Below are positions 3,829 to 11,469 of a stretch of 31,477 nucleotides of DNA, piece by piece. Origin of the DNA: a virus. The notes beneath the pieces are model-generated. The model was not told the DNA's origin. It worked only from the letters and a program-made list of their open reading frames with translations, and ran no database searches. How positions within the stretch are numbered: position 1 is the stretch's first letter; every line of letters begins with the position of its first letter. Location: positions 1-31,477 of the IMG/VR virus record IMGVR_UViG_3300037485_000094. The stretch is one strand, 5' to 3'. Position numbers and translations under genes: made by a program.

Positions 3829-4356
3829 TTATTTTATTAATTCAAAATCTTCGTTTAAATAATCTTTGTAGTCTTCTCCTACTGCTTGTTTTATTCTTTG
3901 CTTACATCTTTTTAAAGTATGGAAGATAGAAGTGTAGTGAATATCTATTTTATCTGCTATTTCTCTAATTGATAAATTTGATTCTCTGTAAATACTAAAT
4001 AACTTCTCATCATAAAAATCCCAAGTTGATATCTCCTCTTGTATTAATCTATCTATTTTATGTAGTGCTTCGTGTTTTTCTGTACTTTTTCCTGTGTCTA
4101 CTACATTCCATACATCATCCAATGATATAAACTCAATTTTGTTCGCTTTGTTGGTGTCGTGTGCTACGTTTCTTAGTATAGACCACATTACTAACTTATT
4201 TATTTCTCCGTTTATTAATAGTTTTTCACTATTTCCGTACTTGTGAATGCGTAAATAAGCATCCTGTACAATATCATCGGGAAACTCACATCCAAACGTT
4301 CTGACTATTTTTAGCCATTCGTTATGATATTTTGATATTTCAGTTAATAATTCCAT
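3829..4356 (-). CDS. Phage RNA polymerase sigma factor (ECF-sized, regions 2 and 4)
   Basis: The 175-aa protein has the two-domain plan of a small group 4 sigma factor. Region 2 contains PDDIVQDAYLRIHKY (26-40). Region 4 is a helix-turn-helix at about 127-155 (NLSIREIADKIDIHYTSIFH). Regions 1.1 and 3 are absent. It would redirect host RNA polymerase. It stands at the head of the late transcription unit, behind a terminator (4421-4445) and a host-type -7 box (4372-4379). The likely targets are the four identical bipartite elements ahead of late genes, whose upstream half GCAACA resembles the AAC-containing -35 boxes of ECF sigmas. That link is inference; some homologues could be simple DNA-binding activators instead. 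Confidence 0.82.
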   Translation of the reverse strand: MELLTEISKYHNEWLKIVRTFGCEFPDDIVQDAYLRIHKYGNSEKLLINGEINKLVMWSILRNVAHDTNKANKIEFISLDDVWNVVDTGKSTEKHEALHKIDRLIQEEISTWDFYDEKLFSIYRESNLSIREIADKIDIHYTSIFHTLKRCKQRIKQAVGEDYKDYLNEDFELIK

Positions 4357-7305: not shown

Positions 7306-7963
7306 CTTGACTCAAAATATAGTTAGACCATTGTTCTGCCATTGCGTTAGCTATTCCGTCAAATGTTTTACTTCTTAAAGTTCGTCTTTCTGCGGGTGTT
7401 TTTGCTTTGCTTAATGCTTCAAAATACCATTTAGGCTGTTTCTTAAGTTGTCCTTTATGGCTTACAAATTCTATAAACTCGCCTTTACCTACTATGTTAG
7501 TTGGAACTAAATTAGGTAACTTAAATAACCAAAGACACGTACTTTTCTGCGCTTCATCACCAAATTGCCAAGGTTGGATTATTTGGTTCGGCTTTCTTAT
7601 TCCAGTGCTTATAACTGAAATAGGATTCTCAATGACTTTGTATTTTATTTGTGCGTTCATTAATTGCCCGACAAACTCTAAAGCTTCCTCTTGGTCTTTG
7701 TGTCTTTGTTCGTTTTTACTTCCGTCTTTGTTATAAAGCCAACGCGCACCGCTTACAGCTAAAAATGTACAAGGCGGGTGTGCTATCATTAAATCCCAAC
7801 CCAAATCAATTACTTCAAACACGTCTTGTTGGTAATGCCATTCAGGATGTCCACCACTGCAAGGTAATAAGTCACAGCTAAACGCTTCGTGTCCTAATTT
7901 TCTAAACGCTTTTGTAACAGATTGGCTTTCTTCGCACGCTATTAATACTTTTAATTTTCTCAT
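7295..7963 (-). CDS. Short C5-cytosine DNA methyltransferase-like protein
   Basis: Residues 5-32 (KVLIACEESQSVTKAFRKLG and following) resemble the SAM-binding motif I of C5-cytosine methyltransferases. The catalytic PPC is at 63-65 (AHPPCTFLAV) and the ENP motif at 112-114 (VIENPISVIS). Near the C-terminus FDGIANAMAEQW resembles motif X. At 222 aa it is much shorter than classical enzymes and lacks a visible target-recognition domain, like a group of phage-only proteins. It may methylate cytosine with low specificity or may modify by another route. It joins its neighbours by TAATG and an 11-base overlap. Confidence 0.8.
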   Translation of the reverse strand: MRKLKVLIACEESQSVTKAFRKLGHEAFSCDLLPCSGGHPEWHYQQDVFEVIDLGWDLMIAHPPCTFLAVSGARWLYNKDGSKNEQRHKDQEEALEFVGQLMNAQIKYKVIENPISVISTGIRKPNQIIQPWQFGDEAQKSTCLWLFKLPNLVPTNIVGKGEFIEFVSHKGQLKKQPKWYFEALSKAKTPAERRTLRSKTFDGIANAMAEQWSNYILSQDEM

Positions 7964-8849: not shown

Positions 8850-9142
8850 AGCTTAATGTCTTTATATTTTAATTCGTGTTCAAGTTCTTCAATTCTTTGT
8901 TTAAGTTCTCCGTTTATTTGTAGGCATCTGATTATTTCTCTGCCTTGTAAGCGTAGTTCTGTTTCAAGTTCGTGTATTGCTTGTTCAACTTGTTTTAAAT
9001 CGTTCTCCGTGTCTTTTGCTCCGTTAATGTATGCAACTGCTGATGGTTTATTTTCTTGTAGCTCTTCTCTCGTTAGCTTTACTTTCCAAATGTTCTTTTG
9101 AATTAGTCCTTTGATGTAAAGCAGTTTTAGTCCTATGTCCAT
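8846..9142 (-). CDS. Coiled-coil hypothetical protein, 98 aa
   Basis: Residues 45-95 form a strong predicted coiled coil with heptad leucines and alternating charges (ending ELKQRIEELEHELKYKDIKL). The N-terminal part is short and basic. No family recognised. It overlaps the helicase gene end by 10 bases and the methyltransferase start by 4, so it is produced with the replication proteins and may act as a helicase partner or loader; that is position-based inference only. Confidence 0.6.
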   Translation of the reverse strand: MDIGLKLLYIKGLIQKNIWKVKLTREELQENKPSAVAYINGAKDTENDLKQVEQAIHELETELRLQGREIIRCLQINGELKQRIEELEHELKYKDIKL

Positions 9143-10137
9143 CCTTTATTGTTTAGTGCGTTTAACTTTTGTTCTACCATTGTGAGCTTTTTCTGCTCAG
9201 GTAGTTTCTTTGTTCGATTAGCGTAAATACGATTGCCTTTGTAATCAAGCATATAAAATTGGTATTTATCTAAGTCCAAATATAGTTTATATACTCCGTT
9301 TTTTGATACGCCTTTAGGTTTGCTTTTAGCTACCTTCAAATGCACTTCGTTTTTCTCTGCTCCTACTCCATCACTATCCATTAATCCAAAAGGAGGACGC
9401 CAAGGAATCAATACGCTTAATCCTTTTCTAAACCAAACTTGACCTCCAGCGAAATCTCTTGCACTTGGCATAGGAAAATAACTGATGTCAGTTCCTGCTA
9501 TTGTCTTAGAACTTACCATAGGTTGGTCACGAACGTGATTAATTACGCAATTGTGTCTACCTGTTCTTCTTGCGTTTTTTCGCACCGTTCCTAAAATCCT
9601 ACTAAGGTATTTATCTTCACGTCCTAAATCACTTGGTAAAAACTCCTCCGTTAATTCGTTCCAAGGGTCAATCGTAGTTGTGTGAATCTTAATTCCCTCT
9701 TTCTTTTCAATTTCATCTACTAAGTCGTAAAACTTTGTAATGGTTAAATCTTCGTCTATTGGGTCAATCACAATAAAATGCTCGTTAATAAACATCTCAG
9801 CAACTATCTGCTCTGAGTTAGTCATTGAGTTTTGTCCTTGAACGTAAGGTTTACCAATGTACTTGTAACAAAGCTCTGCAAATATTTCAGCACTACTTCC
9901 TGTTTCAGGTGAAAATACAACGTGATTCCAATTATGTAAACACGAAAGGTTAATAAGAATTTCAAACCAAAGCTCCGTCTTTCCACTGGCAGGTGCAGAA
10001 CCTATGTAAGTTGTACATCCTTCTTTTATTGTGTAAGGAAGTATATCCCAATCCCATCCTATTGACTTTCCTCTTACGTCTTTCTGTAAGCGTATATCAA
10101 AAAGTTCGTTGTTTACGTTTGTTAGTCTTTTGTACAT
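9133..10137 (-). CDS. DnaB/RecA-type replicative helicase ATPase
   Basis: A 334-aa RecA-fold ATPase with Walker A GSAPASGKT (46-54) and a Walker B-like TTIDPWNEL (154-162). The motif HNCVINHVRDQP (195-206) matches the DnaB/KaiC H4-type strand, and residues 221-246 (around FPMPSARDFAGGQVW) resemble the DnaB segment that precedes the arginine finger. No DnaB N-terminal domain or primase domain is present, as in many small phages that use a single ATPase core. It probably unwinds the phage origin with the upstream initiator. It shares a one-base TAATG junction with that gene. Confidence 0.85.
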   Translation of the reverse strand: MYKRLTNVNNELFDIRLQKDVRGKSIGWDWDILPYTIKEGCTTYIGSAPASGKTELWFEILINLSCLHNWNHVVFSPETGSSAEIFAELCYKYIGKPYVQGQNSMTNSEQIVAEMFINEHFIVIDPIDEDLTITKFYDLVDEIEKKEGIKIHTTTIDPWNELTEEFLPSDLGREDKYLSRILGTVRKNARRTGRHNCVINHVRDQPMVSSKTIAGTDISYFPMPSARDFAGGQVWFRKGLSVLIPWRPPFGLMDSDGVGAEKNEVHLKVAKSKPKGVSKNGVYKLYLDLDKYQFYMLDYKGNRIYANRTKKLPEQKKLTMVEQKLNALNNKGWT

Positions 10138-10751
10138 TAGTCTATGATTGTTGTTGGAAGGTTAAATTTAGGTTTATTTCTTTCAAGTTGATTCTTTTTC
10201 CATCTTTCTAAACGACTTTTTATATTGAATGAAGTTTCTTTTTCAAATCTCATCTTCTTATCCTTATCTCCGTGTTCAGTCCAATACTCGTAAAATTCAC
10301 GCAAAATTACTTTATCAAAAGAATCTAAAAAAGACTTTAAATTATCAGCAAACTTTTGTTTGCGAACTAATATATTATCTTCTTCTTTATCTTTATCTAT
10401 AATGCTTGAGCCTTGCTTTAGCGACGCTTTAGCCTTGCTTAAGCCACCCTTACGTCCTGATTCGCTGAGTTTCAATCGTTTAGAAGATATTTCTTCTTTC
10501 TCTAAATCAAGAAATCTAATTACTAAATTATTTTTTTTAGTTTTTAAATATCCTTTTTCAATTAATAAATCAACAATTGTAGCATTCCTTAAGCGTAGCT
10601 TTGCTTCATCTACTGACATCTGATTATTACGATTCCAGTATTCAGCACATACGCTAATAAAAGCTCCTTGCAATTCAAATGATTCATAGCTAATGTTACC
10701 TGTAATCCACTCAGTAGCATTAAACTTAAAAAATGGTAGTTCCTTACTCAT
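10137..10751 (-). CDS. Replication initiator-like protein (DUF1376-type)
   Basis: The N-terminus FFKFNATEWITGNISYESFE (7-26) with LQGAFISVCAEYW (27-39) is the DUF1376-like winged-helix start found in phage replisome organisers. A linker with GRKGGLSKAKASLKQGSS (about 99-116) follows, then a charged C-terminal domain (135-204). It would bind the origin and load the helicase encoded next. The linker-coding DNA holds two 14-bp direct repeats in a locally GC-richer island (10404-10445), which fits an internal origin as in lambda O. The role is inferred from motif and position. Confidence 0.75.
   Translation of the reverse strand: MSKELPFFKFNATEWITGNISYESFELQGAFISVCAEYWNRNNQMSVDEAKLRLRNATIVDLLIEKGYLKTKKNNLVIRFLDLEKEEISSKRLKLSESGRKGGLSKAKASLKQGSSIIDKDKEEDNILVRKQKFADNLKSFLDSFDKVILREFYEYWTEHGDKDKKMRFEKETSFNIKSRLERWKKNQLERNKPKFNLPTTIID
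10404..10445. repeat. Paired 14-bp direct repeats, candidate origin iterons
   Basis: AGCCTTGCTTTAGC (10409-10422) and AGCCTTGCTTAAGC (10431-10444) differ by one base and start 22 bp apart, two helical turns. GCTTTAGC also occurs in the spacer at 10426-10433. The spacing is not a multiple of three, so a protein repeat does not explain it. It lies inside the initiator gene and is GC-richer than its surroundings. Confidence 0.5.
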
Positions 10752-10929
10752 TGGTTGTACATTTACTAAATTCTTCTAAACATTTTATTAGTGTGTATGC
10801 TTGTTTATTGTCTATGCAGACAGTTCTTGAGCCTTCTCCTTCAATAATTTCAAAGCAAATATGCTCTCCTTTTGATACAATCAATTCATCTTTTTCGTTA
10901 AATTGACATCTTAAATAAATTTCATTCAT
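10744..10929 (-). CDS. Small acidic hypothetical protein, 61 aa
   Basis: First gene after the structured RNA region. The protein begins MNEIYLRCQFNEKDELIVSK and looks like a small beta-rich fold with four cysteines (8, 25, 38, 50). No family recognised. It overlaps the initiator gene by 8 bases and so is the leading cistron of the replication operon. Its position directly behind a possible attenuator makes it the first product affected by that element. Confidence 0.6.
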   Translation of the reverse strand: MNEIYLRCQFNEKDELIVSKGEHICFEIIEGEGSRTVCIDNKQAYTLIKCLEEFSKCTTNE

Positions 10930-10944
10930 TTTATGAAAAATTAA

Positions 10945-11042
10945 GTAAATAAAAAAACCCTCGCAAATCCATCGGGTCTCACTTCGATTTCATTACAAGG
11001 GTAAATAATTCCTTAAGGATTTATAGTGTGAGACCAATCCTG
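10945..11042 (-). ncRNA. Candidate structured RNA or attenuator leader before replication genes
   Basis: On the minus strand, starting a few bases after a TATATTTG box, the sequence can fold in several ways. P1 pairs GGTCTCAC (11035-11028) with GTGAGACC (10982-10975), 8 perfect bp. ACCCTTG (11002-10996) inside the P1 loop pairs with CGAGGGT (10963-10957), 7 bp with one G-U, which makes a pseudoknot. AAATCC (11022-11017) can pair with GGATTT (10970-10965), or AATCC with GGATT (11040-11036). CCTTAAGG (11018-11011) is self-complementary. Seven T follow (10957-10951). ACCC (10977-10974) with GGGT (10960-10957) would form a short terminator hairpin that competes with P1. There is no open reading frame of note. 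It may be a stand-alone RNA of about 90 nt or a switching leader. Confidence 0.6.
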
Positions 11043-11044
11043 TA

Positions 11045-11052
11045 CAAATATA
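11045..11052 (-). promoter_or_regulatory. Promoter -7 box ahead of the structured RNA
   Basis: TATATTTG on the minus strand matches TAnnTTTG exactly. The expected start is about 5-8 bases downstream, immediately before the first RNA helix. No TTTG is present at the 19-base upstream position, so only the -7 half is convincing. Confidence 0.55.
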
Positions 11053-11058
11053 ACGAAC

Positions 11059-11469
11059 TTATTCCAATAAAGTTGCTTCAGGATTAAAATTTTTATATCT
11101 ACCTTCTTTTATCCATCGTTTAACTCTCTGGAGCTTGTATAAATTAGTAGAATCCATAACGTCTGAAATTAAATCTCTTGGTTCAATATAATACTCCGTG
11201 TTTTTCAAGAATACCTGATACTCACGAATGAAACTTGTGTACTCGTGTTTATTATACTTGTTCATATTTTTGTGCGTTTCGATATTATGTAAAACCGATG
11301 CGTGATGCTGATTAAAATACGAACCTATTTCGCCAAGTGTTAACTGCTCTTTTCGTAGTCTATACATTAGGTAGCATTTCTTATAAATGATTTCTCTATG
11401 TCTATTGCGTTTGTTTAATCCATCTCGTTCTATCAAGTACGTTACCTTGTCCATTAAGTTATCTTTCAT
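11059..11469 (-). CDS. DnaA domain IV-like DNA-binding protein, 136 aa
   Basis: Residues 20-68 resemble the C-terminal DNA-binding domain of DnaA. The helix LTLGEIGSYFNQHHASVLHN (43-62) corresponds to the DnaA pattern of IG-x-x-F followed by DHSTV. No AAA+ domain is present, so it binds DNA without the motor. It could recognise DnaA-box-like sites in the phage origin or act as a regulator. The C-terminal half is charged and helical with no known motif. It starts by an ATGA overlap with the 47-aa gene and ends just before the structured RNA region. Confidence 0.72.
   Translation of the reverse strand: MKDNLMDKVTYLIERDGLNKRNRHREIIYKKCYLMYRLRKEQLTLGEIGSYFNQHHASVLHNIETHKNMNKYNKHEYTSFIREYQVFLKNTEYYIEPRDLISDVMDSTNLYKLQRVKRWIKEGRYKNFNPEATLLE

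Follow-up and report, generated by a model that had tools for sequence, protein, structure and literature searches.

Covariation Supports a Conserved Kissing-Loop RNA Ahead of the Replication Genes in Bacteroidota Phages

Introduction

Plasmid copy-control RNAs, such as ColE1 RNAI/RNAII and the ColIb-P9 Inc RNA with the repZ pseudoknot, carry fully complementary hairpin loops of 6–8 nt; they control a replication step, and their loop types diversify rapidly. The C4 antisense RNA of phages P1 and P7 is encoded on the strand of its target gene, a short way upstream, and pairs with the start region of that gene. C4 is listed in PMC2864571. The CI immunity RNA of phage P4 pairs with seqA upstream and seqC downstream of it, stopping transcription of the replication genes (PMC4825925). 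For F. johnsoniae, the -7 promoter element has been described as TAnnTTTG with the G at -5, the -33 element is weak, and translation responds to base pairing close to the start codon (PMC6847099).

Genomic Setting of the RNA

The window analyzed here is the whole of a viral contig of 31,477 nt (31.5 kb; IMG/VR record IMGVR_UViG_3300037485_000094), whose genes lie nearly all on the minus strand and include those for a terminase, Erf, NinG, methylases, and a lysozyme-like enzyme; the window proteins that were scanned did not include an integrase. The RNA site is a 129-nt gap (10930–11058, minus strand) between a gene for a DnaA-like small protein upstream and, downstream, a 61-aa ORF followed by a putative initiator and then a helicase. 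The upstream gene (11059–11469, minus) encodes a small protein like the C-terminal helix-turn-helix of DnaA (Pfam PF08299, E 3e-7, slightly below the curated cut-off); this stand-alone DnaA domain IV-like protein adjoins the RNA on its upstream side in most relatives and is a possible origin-binding or regulatory partner. The 61-aa ORF (10744–10929, minus) matched no family in profile searches. The putative replication initiator (10137–10751, minus) matches phrog_19415 and phrog_29280, both without a named function, and its C-terminal part is common to proteins matching replication-initiation PHROGs. It is followed by the putative DnaB/RepA-type helicase (9133–10137, minus), which matches phrog_5482 and also phrog_239 (DNA primase/helicase, E 3.5e-11). 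A possible phage transcription regulator is encoded elsewhere in the window (3829–4356, minus); its 175 aa include a sigma-factor-like helix-turn-helix (PF04297, at the cut-off).

Structure and Covariation of the Type I RNA

Relatives of the initiator and of the DnaA-like protein were fetched from viral contigs, and most of these carry the RNA in the same gap. The set for the class of the window's RNA, here called type I, comprised 33 distinct related phage sequences with four helices, 27 pairs, and 890 cells, of which 97.6% are paired against 72.4% after shuffling. Changes on both sides occur in 20 of the 27 pairs, with 229 double-changed cells against 61 in the shuffled set. The covariation score is 0.731, compared with 0.24 for shuffled and 0.06–0.09 for slid controls; the slid control is partly biased, the structure having been read from the same sequences, yet so large an effect, seen again in a second class (type II, below), leaves little doubt about the structure. 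The original prediction had proposed a covariation check in related phages, and all four helices covary strongly in these 33 sequences. As judged from this comparison of relatives, which is decisive, the gap encodes a real, conserved structured RNA. Plain energy folding of the gap was uninformative on either strand, and the minimum-energy fold of the whole gap is unremarkable (z -0.68), so that the case rests on the comparison of relatives. The minimum-energy fold of the 95-nt RNA consists of helices P1, P2, and P3 with both X loops open (-21.3 kcal/mol), and a motif detector scored the real site at 29.6, with one match, scoring 20.0, in 3.8 Mb of shuffled window.

Along the minus strand, the first covarying helix, P1, pairs GGATT (11036–11040) with AATCC (11017–11021). 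This was one of two competing pairings proposed originally, and it is real; the other, AAATCC/GGATTT, shows no more than chance pairing, with both-side changes in none of its pairs and 74.7% of cells paired. The P1 loop contains the kissing arm X (GGTCTCAC, 11028–11035) and a 3' part, ACTATA (11022–11027), that is unpaired in the alignment of relatives. The linker that follows (TTAAGGAATTATTT, 11003–11016) is conserved and single-stranded, with the A/U-rich GGWATTATT recurring in relatives.

P2, the terminator stem, pairs ACCCTTGTAA (11002–10993) with TTGCGAGGGT (10966–10957) and is paired in 98.8% of cells. It had been noticed as a 7-bp pairing ending in the T7 run; the pairing is genuine, its length being 10 bp. 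A short terminator hairpin, ACCC/GGGT, proposed alongside it fared no better than chance (no pair changed on both sides, 70.5% of cells paired). Within the terminator hairpin, P3 pairs ATCG (10985–10988) with CGAT (10971–10974), all 4 of its 4 pairs being changed on both sides, and the P3 loop contains the second kissing arm, X' (GTGAGACC, 10975–10982). X (11035–11028) and X' (10982–10975) form a perfect 8-bp helix enclosing exactly 45 nt, just as had been described from the window, and this helix covaries as well (98.1% paired, both-side changes in 6 of 8 pairs). With X in the P1 loop and X' in that of the P2/P3 terminator hairpin, the 8-bp helix is a loop–loop kiss; the suspected pseudoknot, with a U-tract and ahead of the replication genes, is borne out in this form. 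The kissing pairing is compatible with the terminator stem. Family-wide, the design is one of two hairpins on the same strand with a loop–loop kiss of 6–9 bp, one of the hairpins being the terminator. One relative (L013:3879–3979) carries an apparent recombinant RNA with X and X' from different types, whose kiss has one mismatch and one G-U pair.

Promoter, Start, and Terminator

The -7 box TATATTTG predicted within the gap is located at 11052–11045 (minus; consensus TAnnTTTG), and its T, A, and TTTG are near-invariant in relatives. The spacing of the F. johnsoniae box (PMC6847099) puts +1 at the first base of P1 (11040), and the predicted RNA extends for about 90 nt from there to the end of the T7 tract (10951–11040, minus). 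In relatives, P1 starts 2–6 nt past the box and the RNA measures 82–94 nt. A TTG element at -33 is not evident in the promoter region of the RNA, an element that is also weak in F. johnsoniae promoters (PMC6847099). The T7 tract (10951–10957, minus) belongs to an intrinsic terminator, and the 3' end of the aligned relatives is a stem directly abutting an invariant run of T5 or longer. Both marks of an intrinsically terminated Bacteroidota small RNA are present, TAnnTTTG at the right distance from the start (PMC6847099) and a hairpin with a U-tract. As far as can be read from the sequences, the elements are arranged as in a stand-alone RNA gene; a stand-alone small RNA was one of two options in the original prediction, and it fits best, with the box placing the start at base 1 of P1 and the last helix being an intrinsic terminator. 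Two contigs (L050:1642–1720 and L130:7112–7190) have another conserved -7 box, with a strong terminator hairpin (GCCCCATTCTATACGGATGGGGTTTTTT) about 60 nt beyond it; this element, about 2 kb upstream of the main RNA, is possibly a second small RNA.

A Sister Class with a Third Copy of X

Some relatives carry a type II form at the same site (L068, L073, L078, L090, L091, and L017), and a pattern search yielded about 60 members in all. In type II, X (6–7 nt) usually makes up the whole P1 loop, and X' forms the terminator hairpin loop. P2 and P3 are separated by an AGUA/GAA internal loop that is similar to a bulged-G motif. Covariation is again strong, with 98.3% paired and both-side changes in 16 of 23 pairs.

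A third copy of X occurs in the leader between the terminator and the next gene in 46 of 65 type II RNAs and is absent in the other 19. It is found just ahead of the start codon in nearly all 46, as in GTTGCAG-ATG, AAGCAG-AAAATG, GTGCAG-TAAG-ATG, and GGGCAG-TAAAT-ATG. The leader copy changes in step with the loops: in 1756 comparisons between phages differing in X, the X of one was present in the leader of the other in only 35. The CAG end of X was set by the search pattern, and the signal is carried by the variable part. For type I, the pairing of the RNA with its own leader was no better than with other leaders, and neither the rest of the window nor the vicinity of start codons in type I contigs held second copies of the X arms above chance. 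The proposed connection with expression of the downstream initiator gene finds its support in type II and not directly in the window's type I RNA. One contig, L093, holds both types (2803–2907 and 7319–7419), one of type I and one of type II, with differing X.

Distribution and Exchange of the RNA

More than 100 relatives were found in Bacteroidota phages, most of them heading a replication module, further members having been recovered with a covariance model of type I (R1) in contigs fetched via a short pattern. In most of the loci tabulated, the RNA sits between the DnaA-like gene and the initiator. The downstream genes belong to several unrelated initiator classes (DnaD-like loaders, DUF6291, primosomal, and phrog_428), and a few RNAs precede non-initiator genes, such as the ATPase/acetyltransferase of L231.

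Isolated phages carrying the RNA were found via the helicase protein together with model and motif scans; the window DNA showed no similarity to isolated phages, and single-RNA queries returned only self or chance matches. The RNA was identified in Flavobacterium phage FL-1 (KY421186.2, 18920–19026; R1, E 9e-8) and in phage 11b, whose host is an Arctic Flavobacterium (NC_006356.2, 33621–33724; R2, E 1.7e-6), where it precedes a 48-aa ORF and an initiator with a C-terminus resembling that of the window's. In phage FCL-2 (NC_027125.1, 37475–37588), it was recognized by inspection (CATCCAC/GTGGATG; weak by model) ahead of gp54, a phrog_428 replication initiation protein, and in Polaribacter phage P12002L (NC_028924.1, 34382–34477, minus; GGTCGTAG/CTACGACC) it precedes gp44, annotated as "primosomal protein." No convincing member was found in phages 6H and RAP44 by model and motif scans. 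Among Flavobacteriaceae host genomes, R1 matched in 1 of 299 and R2 weakly in 3 of 299, with 13–14 candidates scored per genome, such that absence is weak evidence.

Searches with cmscan against Rfam 15 (4227 families) at the gathering threshold gave no matches in the window and 12 relatives, in agreement with the original prediction, which matched the RNA to no known family, and a permissive search gave chance-level matches only (E 0.07–9). Neither C4 (RF01695) nor 6S-flavo (RF01685) or Flavo-1 (RF01705) was matched by cmscan; the latter two, structured RNAs of the Bacteroidetes (PMC2864571), are possibly the flavobacterial motifs meant in the original prediction. The RNA is not described within the open-access papers searched. 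We regard it as a family absent from Rfam, apparently unnamed, and widespread in Bacteroidota phages.

The RNA and its leader are exchanged together: a given gene start is preceded by type I in some phages, by type II in others. In phage pairs with flanks that are 91–99% identical, the RNAs can be only 70–74% identical; between L034 and L032, for example, P1, X, X', and P3 differ and P2 is identical. Such exchange of units and divergence between like flanks resemble, at the sequence level, an exchange of specificity types. Divergent members were also seen: in an Aequorivita MAG contig (L331:3294–3410), upstream of a relative of the initiator, with a 9-bp kiss (GTTGACGCT/AGCGTCAAC), and in L063 (3410–3554) and L065 (3113 onward), upstream of an initiator, with a much longer linker and TTTGACA/TGTCAAA arms.

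Discussion

The four helices, the third X of type II, the position of the RNA, and its promoter and terminator layout emerge from the comparison of relatives. The reading we favor, with a probability of about 0.55, is that the gap encodes an RNA of about 90 nt that is transcribed on its own, ends at an intrinsic terminator, and exerts antisense-type control on the expression of the replication genes, probably as a brake or timer on genome copying. P1 would display loop X, the terminator hairpin (P2, internal loop, and P3) would display the complementary X', and the two would kiss, X' being the putative active loop. In type II, X' could pair alternatively with X in P1 or with the second X beside the start codon of the initiator, so that the free or bound state of X' would set initiator output; as flavobacterial starts are sensitive to pairing (PMC6847099), pairing of X' at the start codon should repress. 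A type I RNA, with the P1 copy of X only, would act on nascent copies of its own transcript, or else may be held inactive by its own transcript or have another target. That the RNA is transcribed, that it represses, and that the function seen in type II extends to type I are inferences; as the two types are found at one and the same site in these phages, they probably share a role in control of the replication module, and how type I would perform that role is less certain. As no sign of lysogeny was seen in the genes scanned, timing or copy control is favored over immunity.

A tentative extension, to which we give modest weight, is a phage-wide, plasmid-like compatibility system with one X/X' type per phage. 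The X' of one RNA would pair with the X of another copy and, in type II, with the initiator start region, such that co-infecting or over-replicated genomes of the same type would be restrained and those of other types would escape. In that case, the rapid and concerted change seen in P1, X, X', and P3 between close relatives would signal a diversifying specificity.

That rapid change also bears on a rival reading, a trans-acting small RNA with host transcripts as its targets, whose kissing structure would chiefly provide stability or bind a protein. Its own promoter and terminator, the conserved linker, and the lack of a second copy of the window's X in the phage would all suit such an RNA, but loops varying fast among close relatives are unlike a seed for a fixed host target, and the linkage to replication modules and the leader copies of X in type II point to a local target; we consider a host target unlikely. 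The other option of the original prediction, an attenuator, would be a cis-acting or ligand-sensing leader in which the kiss or a bound factor sets terminator read-through into the replication operon. Although the RNA is on the same strand, immediately upstream, and includes a terminator, the competing pairings lack compensatory changes, there is no conserved, mutually exclusive antiterminator, kiss and terminator stem do not exclude each other, and no conserved pocket-like core exists beyond the linker and small internal loops, all of which makes switching of this kind quite improbable. A role as part of the replication origin, either as primer RNA or as a DNA element extruded there, is suggested by the adjoining genes for the DnaA-like protein and the initiator; we think it very unlikely, as the strict promoter–P1 spacing and the U-tract indicate an RNA gene and the variable arms are unlike iterons or DnaA boxes. 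Chance inverted repeats around an ordinary terminator, with which the unremarkable gap energy would agree, are refuted by covariation in two classes and recurrence in more than 100 contigs.

The exceptional covariation support and unusual architecture define an RNA family. Its association with initiators of several unrelated classes suggests that the first step of DNA replication in these phages is under RNA control; such control is little explored in the Bacteroidota, a phylum without Shine-Dalgarno sequences. It is testable now, as isolated phages such as 11b carry the RNA.

Among the known systems closest to it is P4 CI (seqA – CI/seqB – seqC), likewise a short phage RNA that heads a replication operon and has complements on both sides on the transcript (PMC4825925). 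The type II order X – X' – X equals the P4 order of target, antisense loop, and target; the upstream complement is present here as the P1 copy of X, which pairs with X' and covaries, and the downstream complement, ahead of the operon genes, is found in 46 of 65 type II RNAs and is lacking in the window's type I RNA. P4 CI is processed from a longer transcript and works through premature termination of transcription, whereas the RNA described here has its own -7 box and terminator, and, unlike in P4, X and X' lie within one molecule; a sequence relation to CI was looked for via Rfam only. It should be noted that covariation does not separate a kiss in cis from pairing between two RNA molecules, and a version acting in trans would be close to the P4 model. 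C4 is similar in being a phage antisense RNA on the same strand upstream of its target gene, but it is found in Proteobacteria and their phages, controls ant, and differs in architecture. The antisense RNAs of plasmids come from the opposite strand, whereas here both loops lie on the same strand and in the same molecule, and the minus strand carries the RNA, the leader, and the replication genes alike. In its mode of working, the RNA seems to be a variant of the antisense control known from phages and plasmids, with an architecture distinct from these.
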